From Akkermansia muciniphila (GTDB lineage Bacteria > Verrucomicrobiota > Verrucomicrobiia > Verrucomicrobiales > Akkermansiaceae), in assembly GCA_945860285.1 (NCBI GenBank), contig CAMAQB010000035.1, positions 1 through 34,425 on the forward strand: a stretch of DNA of 34,425 nucleotides, given 5' to 3'. Within the stretch, counting starts at the first letter, position 1. Every line of letters starts with the position of its first letter. The position numbers were made by a program, and so were the translations under genes. Below the pieces are notes generated by a model. That model searched no databases. It was given only the letters and a program-made list of their open reading frames with translations, and had not been told where the DNA came from. Positions 5,956-15,289 of this stretch are shown here, in pieces.

Positions 5956-7019
5956 TGGACCCTGTGCTTCCATGGGTTGACCCCGGAGAAATGAGAAGGC
6001 TAGCCGAAGCATTGCTGAGCGTGGCCGTCCATGAACCGCGCGCGTCGGAAGATGCAGGGTTCGGAGGCGACTTCATCGGCTTCGAAGGATCCTCGACAAG
6101 AACCTCCGCAACCCCGGTTGCCCCGGTTGCCCCGGTTGCCCCGGTTGCCCCGGTTGCCCCGGTTGCCCCGGTTGCCCCGGTTGCCCCGGTTGCCCCGGTT
6201 GCCCCGGTTGCCCCGGTTGCCCCGGTCGCCCCGGTCGCCGCGGTCGCCGCGCCTGCTGCAACCACGCCGCTTGTGCGTCCGGCATCTGCTGCGGAGGAAG
6301 TCGTGCGTTTGCCAATATCCGTGCCCCGGCCTCTGATCATCGCATCTGCCCCTCTCAGGCCCCAGGCACCCGTTCATCAAAACCCGGCAAGTACTTCCGA
6401 GGCAGCCAAAGGAATTGTCCCCGCTGCACCTTCAGTCGAAACGCATCTGCTGAACGGCGCATTCAGCATCAGGGAAAAATCGATGCTCGAGCAGATCGCC
6501 GAATCATCGCAACGCCCTCAGGTTCAGCCTGATCGCGTTGTTGTTGACGTACCCGCCATGGCAGCAGCTCAAAGTATTGCCCCAAAGCCTCTGCCGGTCG
6601 CAACCCCGTCGATGCAGGATCCGGCCCGGCCTGCGCCGTCCGCCCAGTCAGCTCCGCTGAAAGTGCGCGGTCCGTTTCTCGAACGCATGGCCCGATTCCG
6701 CGATGGCCTGCACGGACAGTTCGCTGCAAAAGGCGTGTTCATTCTCGACAAGGACGGCTCGGTCATTTTCGACGAAGGCGACCACAGCCGCCTGCATTTC
6801 ATGGCCCGCAGCCTGGCGATGGCCGCGAAGAAATCATCCGATGGCCCGGGCAATGTGCACGTCAAGGTTGGATCCACCACAATGCTCGAAGTCATCCCGA
6901 TCGACACCGTATTCGGCCGCATGGTGCTCGGCCTGCTGGTCGAGCAACCTCTCGCGTCCGATTCGGTGGTCAGGATCATCAAGGCATTGCAATCAATGGT
7001 CGCACCACCGGCGGCCTGA
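5955..7019 (+). CDS. Repeat-containing protein with C-terminal Roadblock/LC7-like domain
   Basis: A 354-aa protein in three parts: a short N-terminal segment (1-50); a Pro/Ala/Val tract at ~53-97 encoded by a perfect 9-bp tandem repeat; a low-complexity linker to ~240; and a compact domain at ~241-350. The order of predicted elements in that domain (helix [10 protein letters not shown], strands GVFILDKDG and SVIFDE, helix [10 protein letters not shown], strands VHVKVG, MLEVIPI and MVLGLLVE, helix [10 protein letters not shown]) matches Roadblock/LC7 proteins such as MglB. Roadblock proteins normally regulate small GTPases. Here the gene overlaps the ParA-type ATPase by one base, which suggests a functional pair. 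mnmA follows 10 bp later. The fold assignment is by eye, with no search done. Function unknown. Confidence 0.7.
6112..6246 (+). repeat. 9-bp tandem repeat, unit CCCCGGTTG, about 15 units
   Basis: Twelve identical units run from 6112 to 6219, then two CCCCGGTCG units (6220-6237) and one decayed CCGCGGTCG. In the reading frame they encode (A/T-P-V)n. Because the unit is a multiple of three, gain or loss changes length but not frame. Identity at the nucleotide level, including synonymous positions, indicates recent expansion by slippage. All six frames remain open here, which produces spurious antisense ORFs. Confidence 0.97.
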
Positions 7020-11468: not shown

Positions 11469-11581
11469 GCGAATGCCTCCCGTCAGTGATGGCAGAGAAT
11501 TTGCTTTTGCGGTTGGTGTTCATGGGAAGGGATATGCAGGCCTCGCCGCGCGGAGAAAAAGCAGGGGGGCGGTTTCCCATT

Positions 11582-12034
11582 TTACGCGCCCGGCGGCGGC
11601 AGAAATTCCAGGCCGAATTTTTTGGCAATCTCCATGACATGCGGGATGTCCTGCTGTTGCTGCGGAGTCATCGCTCCAATCTCGACAAAGAAGTTTTCGA
11701 AGCCTGCGGGGGTGATTACCACGGATAGCTTTCCACCGCTTTTGCTGGTGCAGCAGTAGGTGTGCGGAATCCCGCGTGGCGCAAACAACGTGTCGCCGGT
11801 TTTTGCCGTGATGGTTTTTCCAGCGACCATGAATTCGTATTCACCTTCCAGAATCTGGAACGTTTCGTCTTCGCAATGATGGATATGCGGCGGAGGGCCG
11901 CCTCCGGGCGTGTCGTGCGACTCAACCACGGCGAGCGTGCCGTTCGTTTCGCTTCCAGTGACGCGGAGGAGCATGGCAATGCCAAGGATGCTCAAGGCCA
12001 CGCCGCCGTCTTTCGGAACTTGGATGGGGGTCAT
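11582..12034 (-). CDS. Small single-domain cupin protein
   Basis: A 150-aa cupin. Motif 1 is visible as HIHHCEDETFQILEGEYEF, with metal-ligand candidates H50, H52 and E57. Motif 2 is visible as GDTLFAPRGIPH, with H91. Such proteins bind Fe, Mn, Zn or Ni and include dioxygenases, isomerases and sugar- or quercetin-binding forms, so the substrate cannot be named. The C-terminal tail (MTPQQQQDIPHVMEIAKKFGLEF) is like that of quercetinase-like cupins common in soil bacteria. It is upstream of the Nramp-like gene. The AT-rich 230 bp upstream probably holds its promoter, but I could not pick one with confidence. Confidence 0.85.
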   Translation of the reverse strand: MTPIQVPKDGGVALSILGIAMLLRVTGSETNGTLAVVESHDTPGGGPPPHIHHCEDETFQILEGEYEFMVAGKTITAKTGDTLFAPRGIPHTYCCTSKSGGKLSVVITPAGFENFFVEIGAMTPQQQQDIPHVMEIAKKFGLEFLPPPGA

Positions 12035-12326
12035 AAAAAATATCTTTCTACGGCGATTTTCTGTTTTCGCGAACCCGCTGGCAAGCGAATTATTTCATCA
12101 TGTTTTTTTGTCGCAATACGCTTTTTTCTGCCAGGATGGATATTTACGTATGGTATCGTTCCGGGCGTAAAAGAACATCTTTTTCTGCTCAATTGTAAAT
12201 TTTTGGACACTGGTATTTGTTAATTATTATTCCAAGGGGAAAATTGGGGACATGCTAACGAACATGCGCAGGTCATCCACGGCGATCAAGCTAGGGAAAG
12301 GATTGAAAAGAAATGTCGCAATCAAA

Positions 12327-12497
12327 AGGCAGGGAACGATTTCCGAGCGTTCCGGTGGGGGGCGGCCGCATCACGCCGTAACGTAATCTACCTTCACCCC
12401 ACGCTCTCGTGCGCCAACAACGCTGGTGAGTCAGGAAGGACCAGCGAGAGTTATGCACCCTGCCCCCACCGGAACTTTCGGAGAAACTTCCCTGCCT
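12327..12497. repeat. Double-hairpin repeat unit, copy 1
   Basis: The ends are AGGCAGGGAA and TTCCCTGCCT. The left arm folds as GGAACG...CGTTCC (12333-12353). The right arm folds as GGAACTTT-CGGAG-AAACTTCC (12471-12491), with one C-C mismatch. Both arms carry GGTGGGG facing inward. The middle, from CGGCCGCATC to GTGAGTCAGG, is almost identical to copy 2 and partly conserved in copy 3. Confidence 0.85.
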
Positions 12498-12510
12498 GAA
12501 AGGCATCAAA

Positions 12511-12678
12511 AGGGAACGATCTCCGAGCGTTCCGGTGGGGGGCGGCCGCATCACGCCGTAACGTAATCTACCTTCACCCCACGTTCTCGTGCGCCAACAA
12601 CGCCGGTGAGTCAGGAAGGAAGATGACCCGTCAACCATCCTGCCCCCACCGGATCGCCAGGGACAGCGATCCCTGCCT
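12511..12678. repeat. Double-hairpin repeat unit, copy 2
   Basis: Left arm GGAACG...CGTTCC (12513-12533). The right arm differs from copy 1 but still pairs perfectly: GGATCGC at 12651-12657 with GCGATCC at 12666-12672. The 60 bases 12541-12600 differ from 12361-12420 at one position. It lies in tandem with copy 1, inside the MITE-like element. Confidence 0.85.
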
Positions 12679-12766
12679 TTGAGCATCTCCCTGGCTTGAT
12701 CGCCGTGGCAGGTCATCGGCATTTCCCTGCTTGACCTGAGCGCTGCGGGTGATAGGTTCGTCACTC

Positions 12767-13453
12767 ATGATCCAAAGAAACATTCACTTGGTCACCGCGC
12801 GCAAATCGATGCCGGGTCGTCGCGACTTTCTGGCCAGGGCTGCTTTCGGTGCTGCTTTTCTCGCCGTTCCCGGTGCTTTTGCCGAGGCGCTGACACAGAC
12901 GCCGAAGCAAACGGAGGGTCCGTTTTACCCCGACCATCTGCCGCTCGACACCGACAATGATCTGCTGATTCTCAATAACTCGCTCACGCCAGCAGTGGGC
13001 GAAGTGACTTATTTGAGCGGTCGCATTCTCGATGCCAAGGGCGATCCGTTGCGCGGCGTGGAGGTGGAGATCTGGCAGTGCGATCACGAGGGTTCTTATC
13101 TGCACAGCAAAGGACAGAGTGGTGACAAGCGCGACCAGAATTTCCAAGGCTTTGGTCGTTTCCTCACCGGGGAAAAGGGTGAATACCTCTTCCGCACGAT
13201 CAAGCCGGTCAGTTATCCCGGGCGCTCGCCGCACATTCATTACAAGGTCAAGGCCAAGGGCAGGGACCTGCTGGTCACGCAATGTTACATCAAGGGCGAT
13301 CAGCGCAACAACAAGGACATGGTGTTCAAGAACATCAAGGATGAAAAAGCCCGCGCCGCCATCGAGGTCGATTTCGTGCCGATGAAAAACGCCAAAGCGG
13401 GTGAACTCAGCGCCACGTTTGACATCGTGCTCAGCCTCACGCCGGAAGGCTGA
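12767..13453 (+). CDS. Tat-exported intradiol ring-cleavage dioxygenase-like protein
   Basis: A 228-aa protein of the protocatechuate 3,4-dioxygenase/intradiol superfamily. The Fe(III) ligands of the family can be placed at Y111 (HEGSY), Y150 (VSYPGRSP), H156 and H158 (PHIHY). The N-terminus carries a twin-arginine signal (R18-R19, then DFLARAAFGAAFLAVPGAFAEA), so the protein is predicted to be folded with its metal and exported. Exported intradiol-like proteins are common in soil bacteria, and their aromatic substrate is usually unknown. No catabolic genes adjoin it. It stands alone between the MITE-like element and repeat copy 3. Start chosen: the ATG at 12767. An ATG at 12749 is also in frame, and no Shine-Dalgarno decides between them. 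Confidence 0.88.
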   Translation: MIQRNIHLVTARKSMPGRRDFLARAAFGAAFLAVPGAFAEALTQTPKQTEGPFYPDHLPLDTDNDLLILNNSLTPAVGEVTYLSGRILDAKGDPLRGVEVEIWQCDHEGSYLHSKGQSGDKRDQNFQGFGRFLTGEKGEYLFRTIKPVSYPGRSPHIHYKVKAKGRDLLVTQCYIKGDQRNNKDMVFKNIKDEKARAAIEVDFVPMKNAKAGELSATFDIVLSLTPEG

Positions 13454-13491
13454 GTCGATGGTCTTTGCGGGTTGTGCACAAGGCATTCAAA

Positions 13492-13662
13492 AGGCTGGGA
13501 ACGATCTCCGAGCGTTCCGGTGGGGGACGGCCACGAATCCTCACAACGCAACCAACCTTCACCCCACGCCCCCGTTCCCAAACAAAGCCGGTGAGTCAGG
13601 AAGAATCATCAAGACCTAACCACCCTGCCCCCACCGGAACTTTCGGAGAAACTTCCCTGCCT
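13492..13662. repeat. Double-hairpin repeat unit, copy 3
   Basis: It begins AGGCTGGGAA and ends TTCCCTGCCT. The left arm matches copies 1 and 2 (GGAACG...CGTTCC) and the right arm matches copy 1. The middle is diverged, but CCTTCACCCCACG and GGTGAGTCAGGAAG are kept. It starts 38 bp after the dioxygenase stop. No clear target duplication is flush with it, although GGCATTC occurs at 13482-13488 and 13674-13680. Confidence 0.8.
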
Positions 13663-13708
13663 GTGAGAGTTCGGGCATTCTGAATATGCTTTCCAAAATC
13701 AATGACTC

Positions 13709-15289
13709 GTGTTTTCTTGGCACGTGCCAGCTTCCGTGGAAATCGTCGATATCATCCTGCCGCTCGCCGTCTCGGAGGACCAATCGGCGTGGCGCGCTGC
13801 GGCGGCCGAAAAATTGAAAATCGCCGCGTCGAGGATCAAAAGTCTGAAGCTGCGCAAGCATTCGATCGATGCCCGCCAGCGCACGATCAAGGTGCAGTTG
13901 CGGCTGGAACTGGGCATCGATGCCGAGCTTCCTGCGGACCAGCATCCGGCGTGGACCTGTGCTCCGCTCGCCGCGAAGCCAAAAACAGCGGTGATCGTCG
14001 GCTGCGGCCCGGCGGGAATGTTCGCGGCACTTCGCTGTCTGGAGCGCGGCATCAAACCGATCATCCTCGAACGCGGCAAGGATGCCAGCGCGCGGCGCTT
14101 CGATCTGGCACCTCTGCTGCGCGAGGGCCGGGTGATTGAAGACTCCAATTATTGCTTCGGCGAAGGCGGTGCGGGCACGTTTTCCGATGGCAAACTTTAC
14201 ACGCGCGCCACCAAACGCGGCCACGTCGCCACCATCTACGAAATCCTGGTGGCCCACGGCGCACCGGAAAAAATCCTCACCGATGCCCATCCGCACATCG
14301 GTTCGAACCTGCTGCCGAATGTGGTCAAAGCGATTCGTGCTTCGATCCTCGCCGCCGGTGGCGAGGTCCATTTTCAAAGCAAGGTTGTCGATTTCCTCAT
14401 TGATCACAATACCTTGCGCGGCGTGCTCTGCGCGGATGGCAGGACTTTCGAAGGCGACTCCGTGGTGCTTGCCAGCGGACATTCCGCGCGCGACATCTAT
14501 CGGCTGCTGCAGCGGAAAAACATTCTCATGGAGAAAAAAGCGTTCGCTGTCGGAGTGCGCATCGAACACCCGCAGGATTTGATCGATCAAGTGCAGTATC
14601 ACATTCCGCGTGGTGAGCAGCGTCCGCGATTGTTGCCTGCGGCCCGGTATCGACTGGCGACAAAAATCGACGATCGGGGCGTGCACAGTTTTTGCATGTG
14701 TCCCGGCGGCTGGGTGGTGCCGGCGGCGACGGAAAACGACGAGGTGGTGGTCAACGGCATGAGCCTGGCGCGACGTGATTCGCCTTTTGCCAATAGCGGT
14801 CTGGTGGTGACGGTGGAACCGGAGGATACTGATGCGTTTGCCGGTGAGCACGGCATTCTTTCCGGCATCGCGTTTCAAAAAAACCTGGAATGCCTTGCAA
14901 AAAAATCCGGTGGCGGCGGCCAGAAGGCTCCGGGTCAGCGGGTGGCGGATTTTTTGAAAGGGAAAATTTCCAACGACCTGCCGCCGATGAGTTATTTCCC
15001 CGGAGCCACGTCCGCGCCCCTTCATGAACTGATGCCGGCATGGATCGTCGGACGCATGCGTTCGGGCCTGAAATTGTTCGGCAATCAAATCCGCGGCTAC
15101 AACGGTCATGATGCCTTGATGCTGGGATTTGAAACGCGGACCAGTTCGCCGGTGCGGATTCCGCGCGATGAGGAAACGCTGCAACATCCCTTGCTGGCGC
15201 GATTGTTCCCCTGTGGCGAAGGCGCGGGATACGCCGGAGGCATTGTCAGTGCGGCGATGGATGGCCTGAAAACCGCCGACGCGCTCTAA
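13709..15289 (+). CDS. FAD-dependent dehydrogenase, COG2509 family
   Basis: A 526-aa flavoprotein. The FAD-binding motif GCGPAGMFAAL begins near residue 98, and an acidic residue for ribose follows in IILERGK. The central YCFGEGGAGTFSDGKLYTR and the C-terminal FPCGEGAGYAGGIVSAAMDG are signatures of the large COG2509 (uncharacterised FAD-dependent dehydrogenase) family. The first ~85 residues form the small alpha/beta domain typical of these proteins. The substrate is not known for the family. The start is the GTG at 13709. A second GTG at 13724 would drop five residues. It begins 46 bp after repeat copy 3 and ends convergent with the ALDH-like gene. Confidence 0.9.
   Translation: MFSWHVPASVEIVDIILPLAVSEDQSAWRAAAAEKLKIAASRIKSLKLRKHSIDARQRTIKVQLRLELGIDAELPADQHPAWTCAPLAAKPKTAVIVGCGPAGMFAALRCLERGIKPIILERGKDASARRFDLAPLLREGRVIEDSNYCFGEGGAGTFSDGKLYTRATKRGHVATIYEILVAHGAPEKILTDAHPHIGSNLLPNVVKAIRASILAAGGEVHFQSKVVDFLIDHNTLRGVLCADGRTFEGDSVVLASGHSARDIYRLLQRKNILMEKKAFAVGVRIEHPQDLIDQVQYHIPRGEQRPRLLPAARYRLATKIDDRGVHSFCMCPGGWVVPAATENDEVVVNGMSLARRDSPFANSGLVVTVEPEDTDAFAGEHGILSGIAFQKNLECLAKKSGGGGQKAPGQRVADFLKGKISNDLPPMSYFPGATSAPLHELMPAWIVGRMRSGLKLFGNQIRGYNGHDALMLGFETRTSSPVRIPRDEETLQHPLLARLFPCGEGAGYAGGIVSAAMDGLKTADAL

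Follow-up and report, generated by a model that had tools for sequence, protein, structure and literature searches.

The closest described systems to the repeat reported here are the GTAG-type REPs, in which a GTAG head is followed at once by the stem. Degenerate heads, GYAG included, are described for them, as are complementary changes in the stems and inverted dimers, whose spacers may be conserved or variable; they are present in Opitutus terrae, a member of the same phylum (PMC3733652; PMC2817692). Insertion of IS110-family elements into REPs is also known, IS621 and ISPpu9 being among the examples (PMC1525189; PMC11208160).

Anatomy and copies of the repeat unit

The window, by which we mean the whole 34,425-nucleotide stretch of DNA analysed, is contig 35 of a 3.70-Mb genome in 162 contigs (G000). 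A repeat unit of approximately 170 bp occurs in it at 12318-12498, 12498-12678 and 13483-13663, units 2 and 3 being 77% and 83% identical to unit 1, respectively. These three copies with inverted ends, first noticed in the original prediction, are real, and G000 has at least 103 such places, these three included. The inverted ends span 35 nt and are 83% complementary for several pairs, and strict borders of the form AGGC(A/T)GGG...CCCTGCCT were found at 12327-12497 (unit 1) and 13492-13662 (unit 3). Each unit contains two inverted palindromes of ~21 nt, with a distance of 117 nt from stem to stem. Units 2 and 3 are separated by a dioxygenase gene (called 12767-13453); unit 3 lies 44 bp past its called end and 78 bp ahead of the next called gene. 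The features of the three units are as follows:

12327..12497, + strand: unit 1, REP doublet of type A
12329..12353, + strand: left palindrome of unit 1; head GCAG at 12329-12332, stem-loop at 12333-12353 (fold z -2.49)
12471..12495, - strand: right palindrome of unit 1; stem-loop at 12471-12491 with a C-C mismatch, head GCAG (- strand) at 12492-12495 (z 0.10)
12511..12676, + strand: unit 2, REP doublet of type B; left head degenerate, AAAG at 12509-12512
12513..12533, + strand: left stem-loop of unit 2 (fold z -2.41)
12651..12676, - strand: right B-type hairpin of unit 2; hairpin at 12651-12672, head GCAG (- strand) at 12673-12676 (z -1.81)
13492..13662, + strand: unit 3, REP doublet of type A, without adjoining mini-element ends
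13494..13518, + strand: left palindrome of unit 3; head GCTG at 13494-13497, stem-loop at 13498-13518 (z -2.34)
13636..13660, - strand: right palindrome of unit 3; stem-loop at 13636-13656 (C-C mismatch), head GCAG (- strand) at 13657-13660 (z 0.10)

Compared with shuffled sequences, whole units gave a z of -5.31 (unit 1 as DNA) and -4.88 (unit 3 as RNA), and units 1 and 3 are predicted to fold best as a single long stem that joins both ends. The two inward-facing hairpins proposed for each unit were borne out mainly on one side: the folding of the left arms is moderately better than that of shuffles (z -2.49, -2.41 and -2.34 in units 1, 2 and 3), whereas GGAACTTTCGGAGAAACTTCC, the right arm shared by units 1 and 3, carries a C-C mismatch and is no better than shuffles when folded alone (z 0.10). 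The right arm of unit 2 folds a little better than shuffles (z -1.81). No structure was predicted for the spacer in 12 units.

The motif GGTGGGG, earlier placed beside each stem, is present as GGTGGGGG/CCCCCACC, but it is probably the GCAG head, placed outside the stem, that is relevant. The left heads of window units 1, 2 and 3 read GCAG, AAAG and GCTG, respectively, and all three right heads read GCAG. Among the 56 full units of G000 (160-163 nt between scored ends; 35 of type A and 21 of type B), GCAG is found directly outside the stem at 34 left and 45 right ends, six more right ends being cut by IS110, and the left head is degenerate in 22 units. Across genera, GGCAG heads 39 and GGTAG four of 47 palindrome forms, which were picked with a GGCAG query. 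Because inverted palindromes with a GCAG head match the layout of GTAG-type REPs, the unit can be described as a REP doublet (BIME/REPIN-like); complementary stem changes, a degenerate head of the GYAG type and many intergenic copies with dimers were all found. The REP/BIME-like design suggested earlier was therefore right in its anatomy, as the units are inverted pairs, multi-copy, intergenic where scored in G000 (41/62 clusters), in part tandem, and hit by IS110. Title and abstract openings of the papers matched, subscription papers lying outside the scope of the search, do not name this palindrome family, and four 12-15-nt stretches of the G009-type palindrome (window stem excluded) matched only an unrelated human-cell paper.

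The collection of genomic copies and the covariance model that had been called for were built from the 56 full G000 units and four units of a second genome, G009. Among the matches listed (150 candidates were scored per genome), the model identified at least 103 distinct places, distributed over 56 contigs of G000 and comprising 63 single places and 16 runs of two to four; these copy numbers are lower bounds, since the 162-contig assembly often breaks inside units. Among the places listed in G000, 13 of 24 tandem spacings were 180-184 bp, and three were 99 bp. The 99-bp places are found on contigs 135 (6012-6371) and 160 (874-1132).

Mobile elements around and inside the units

Units 1 and 2 are enclosed by CACGGCGATCAAGC terminal repeats, outside of which the flanking 10-mers are identical at 10 of 10 positions. 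The parts of this composite element are listed below:

12278..12707, + strand: mini-element of 430 bp, non-autonomous, with ISAs1-type ends, holding units 1 and 2 in the order A-B
12268..12277, no strand: left copy of the 10-bp target duplication, GCAGGTCATC
12278..12297, + strand: left terminal inverted repeat, CACGGCGATCAAGCTAGGGA, which also bounds the ISAs1-family IS on contig 106 (4639-5914)
12688..12707, - strand: right terminal inverted repeat
12708..12717, no strand: right copy of the target duplication, GCAGGTCATC

Target duplications of the ISAs1 family are 8-10 bp long; the mini-element has terminal repeats shared with ISAs1 and a target duplication of the length usual for that family. 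The IS on contig 106 (1276 bp) has the same ends and encodes a 388-aa protein identified as an ISAs1 transposase (360.7 bits, cut-off 70). The first 26 bases of its left end are those of the right end of the mini-element save for one base, and this IS copy displays no clear target duplication (4/10). No evident transposase was found among the reading frames of a further region with repeat-like ends, on contig 7 (10792-12001).

At the fetched loci, 18 of 29 terminal-repeat pairs had flanking 10-mers identical at 8 or more of 10 positions (12 of them exactly; 0.37% in shuffled controls) and 11 fell short of this, in a set that includes the IS itself, one element devoid of units and probable chance pairings. 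Among 24 complete elements with a conserved left flank, 20 contained one B arm (mostly 244-251 bp long) and two no recognised arm; one, that of the window, was AB (430 bp), and one was AAB (613 bp). ISAs1-type terminal repeats at both ends with no REP doublet inside were seen at three loci (L155, L159 and L169). On contigs 10 (54802-55313) and 60 (1-409) mini-elements stand in pairs, side by side, and in the contig 10 pair a 10-bp duplication is common to the outer flanks only. At three other loci (L161, L162 and L020, on contigs 2, 11 and 120) CTAG marks the point where foreign sequence meets either the terminal repeat or the B hairpin, which suggests that another element inserts there.

It could be argued that the unit is itself a DDE-type mini-element, its 35-nt inverted ends serving as terminal repeats and its hairpins being incidental; the 83% complementarity of these ends and the single long stem of the best fold would fit such a scheme. 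Units without element ends, however, were not accompanied by target duplications: in G009 and a third genome, G007, 0 of 12 shared a word of at least 6 nt (2.7% in shuffled controls). A cruder set of 17 G000 units, some of them inside elements, had three that reached a 6-nt shared word as compared to 22% in shuffled controls. That free units make duplications was not supported; the shared words of the G000 set consist of a conserved linker, AAAGGCA or AAGGCA. Furthermore, the transposon-like ends with duplications sit outside the unit, single palindromes covary across genera (see below), and in 20 units local hairpin pairing (108/120 and 100/120) exceeds pairing from end to end (87/120 and 89/120). 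We therefore regard a DDE-type origin of the unit itself as improbable.

An additional mobile element uses the units as a target. The 169-nt left end of an IS110-type element was found at seven places in G000; at six of these it abuts the right arm of a type A unit at the same base, and at the seventh it abuts an arm remnant. Junctions of this type were observed on contigs 85 (L100), 46, 73, 88, 144 and 161. The partial frame on contig 85 scored 36.1 bits with the IS110 model, below the cut-off of 140, and had no Pfam match.

Pairing of the stems within and between genomes

The change of the right arm to GGATCGC/GCGATCC was initially read as compensatory. The CGGAG loop core is present in none of the 21 B arms, meaning that A and B differ by exchange of the entire hairpin together with its loop; in 28 of 29 B arms, moreover, the 3' end of the mini-element is found within 90 nt downstream. 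The B arm is accordingly a different hairpin tied to that end, and the contrast between A and B arms, from which selection for folding had been deduced, reflects the end of an ISAs1-type mini-element that the first reading had missed.

The broader claim, that pairing is kept as the arms vary, fares differently at different distances: between species and genera compensated changes do occur, whereas inside G000 pairs are often broken. The fifth pair of the type A right arm is broken in 31 of 35 units (C-C in 20, C-T in nine, C-A and T-T in one each). In the left arms of 60 aligned units, the six outer pairs are kept in 48-59 units, and the inner pair 9-17 is unpaired in 43. Arms that vary without keeping their pairing, which the original prediction had named as the evidence that would speak against it, are thus present within this genome. 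RNAalifold applied to the 60 units yielded 11 pairs, none of them compensatory; the A and B right arms are out of register in that alignment, and the result was set aside.

The unit was found in three of ten genomes of the genus (G000, G009 and G007) and is absent from the other seven; a scan of genome contigs returned four matching stretches, all in the Verrucomicrobiae MAG RE-26jul17-9 (G009). Stem forms in the genus include GGACCG/CGGTCC and GGACGG/CCGTCC, and the spacer is inverted in some G009 and G007 units. In an alignment of 20 units, 85.4% of cells were paired as compared to 78.0% in shuffles, and covariation was 0.196 as compared to 0.108 (each reached in 0 of 500 shuffles). Pair changes on both sides (8 vs 6.7 shuffled; 131 of 500) and further pair types (22 vs 21.0; 180 of 500) were not above shuffles. 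When the register was set separately for each right arm, 116 of 140 pairs were formed (93.7 shuffled; 0 of 5000), and for G009 and G007 alone 66 of 84 (58.3 shuffled; 1 of 5000).

In the family, scanned under stricter filters than the genus, the model matched 8 of 60 genomes; five of these are outside the genus, with weak matches (best E 1.6e-9). In one genome (G015) the palindromes are 61 nt apart and the first 14 nt of the spacer resemble the spacer of the window. At the level of the order, a query that allowed up to three mismatches showed 19 of 288 genomes, from 7 of 50 genera, to carry the headed palindrome, the reversed control being 0 in every row; the cross-genus pairing tests are based on the same query. 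Another pattern, TTCCGGTGGGGGNCG, was dropped, as its matches outside G000 were as frequent as those of the reversed control.

The stem covaries between genera. The 30 copies fetched comprise 22 distinct palindromes, in which 90.9% of cells were paired as compared to 82.5% in shuffles (0 of 500), against controls that leave the relatedness among the sequences in place. In these palindromes, six of nine pairs were changed on both sides (1.7 shuffled) and 12 further pair types were observed (6.6 shuffled), neither being reached in 500 shuffles; all five covariation measures were above shuffles, and versions slid out of register came nowhere near. A wider set of 47 forms, drawn from 66 listed places with repeats of the same form in a genome left out, gave 363 of 423 Watson-Crick pairs (324 shuffled) among the matches listed. 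Compensation in these 47 forms is incomplete: 20 of the changed pairs are compensated, and 38 are altered in other ways.

Another possible reading is that the units are structured RNAs or regulatory elements, acting as attenuators, terminators or mRNA stabilisers and preserved by host selection, for instance at the 3' ends of genes. Gene context was scored with our own codon-usage script, whose calls are rough. By these calls, several G009 and G007 units lie 4-16 bp from gene ends, and 5 of 13 clusters in these genomes are between convergent genes (the others being four tandem, one divergent, two overlapping a called gene and one at an edge), as compared to 8 of 56 unit-free neighbouring gene pairs (42 tandem, 6 divergent). 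In G000, on the other hand, copies are also found between divergent genes: the 41 of 62 clusters that could be scored comprise 22 tandem, 13 divergent and 6 convergent gene pairs, none inside a called gene, and the remaining 21 are at contig edges. Recent copies carry broken pairs, seven of ten genomes of the genus have no unit at all, the spacer has no predicted structure, and Rfam covariance models gave no match to 11500-14500 up to E = 1. A regulatory role under host selection is thus hard to sustain, and we consider it quite unlikely. On contig 33 of G009 (149-318; L062/L214) a doublet is seen by eye directly 3' of an rRNA gene, which we take to be 5S, and of a terminator-like hairpin.

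Routes of spread and comparison with known systems

The search for a RAYT gene that the original prediction had proposed turned up no unit next to a Y1_Tnp match in any of the three unit-bearing genomes: the flanks of these matches (up to 1.5 kb, some ending at contig edges; 21 matches in G000, 9 in G007 and 4 in G009) contained none. No RAYT was recognised at 36 palindrome loci by a home-made profile of 10 proteins, used without a positive control, and thus a RAYT flanked by the same palindrome, as in RAYT-associated REPINs, was not found. One possible explanation is that the doublets are ordinary REPINs still moved by a RAYT of G000 encoded away from them, the mini-element being a side show; the many Y1_Tnp matches and the REP layout of the GCAG-headed palindrome are in keeping with it. 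Not only do the units adjoin no Y1_Tnp gene in G000, G007 or G009, however, but the sole one of 29 Y1 loci to lie between inverted GTAG palindromes (L109, contig 8, 49309-49536) is bordered by a different palindrome, GTAG-CGGAGGC..., of a REP family other than that of the units. Since this case was found, a RAYT between its palindromes could be detected. Ordinary REPIN behaviour therefore appears possible but rather doubtful.

We consider it likely that the units are REP doublets, some of which travel as cargo of an ISAs1-type mini-element, and which also serve as a landing site for an IS110-family element. The composite structure with its 10-bp target duplications, the ISAs1 transposase gene with the same ends, and the fixed IS110 junction are all observed in G000. 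The doublet would be a non-coding, mostly intergenic repeat whose palindrome family is shared by several genera of the order, and ancestrally it probably spread via a single-strand, RAYT/IS200-like mechanism. Some G000 doublets would in addition have been taken on as cargo by an unrelated second carrier, namely a non-autonomous ISAs1-family derivative of ~250 bp (one unit) to 613 bp (three units), presumably moved in trans by the ISAs1 transposase; doublets may have been captured by the mini-element and then extended in tandem inside it. In the window, units 1 and 2 form such a composite element, and unit 3 is a doublet without mini-element ends. Going further, REP doublets with no dedicated RAYT may have been taken up as the whole interior of an ISAs1 mini-element, tandemly extended and multiplied, so that a single repeat family would now spread by two unrelated chemistries and also offer a landing site to IS110; to this fuller scenario we would give slightly less than an even chance.

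Several observations weigh against the cargo explanation. Units have no RAYT beside them, two of the five measures in the 20-unit alignment are at shuffle level, arms are broken within G000, the head is GCAG and not GTAG, and 22 of 56 left heads are degenerate. In addition, the duplication at the IS copy is only 4/10, 11 of 29 terminal-repeat pairs fail, the IS110 score is below its cut-off, and seven of ten genomes lack the unit.

The units add one more palindrome family to the REPs of Verrucomicrobiota, and offer a clear case in which a DDE-type mini-element, its target duplications intact, carries REP doublets; the two modes of spread are therefore separable copy by copy. They also demonstrate that an apparent compensatory change can be the swap of a whole module.

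With GTAG-type REPs (PMC3733652; PMC2817692) the units share a head tetranucleotide 5' of the stem, inverted dimers and complementary stem changes, and differ from them in a mostly GCAG head, in that no RAYT was found adjoining, and in the presence of some copies inside a DDE-type mini-element. Similarly to REPINs, as these are described in PMC3116915, they are inverted REP doublets with a spacer, able to form one long hairpin, and their free doublets are intergenic and in some cases clustered; unlike REPINs, they have no proximal RAYT, and their stems are separated by a conserved 117-nt spacer. The IS110-family junction corresponds to the insertion of IS621 and ISPpu9 into REPs in its one fixed position at the palindrome foot (PMC1525189; PMC11208160), the target here being the GCAG palindrome of the units. 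Finally, the element in the window resembles ISAs1-derived MITEs in having the ends of a full transposase-encoding IS, target duplications and many short copies, but whereas the interior of a typical IS-derived MITE is a deleted transposase gene, that of the G000 mini-elements is made of one to three REP doublets.
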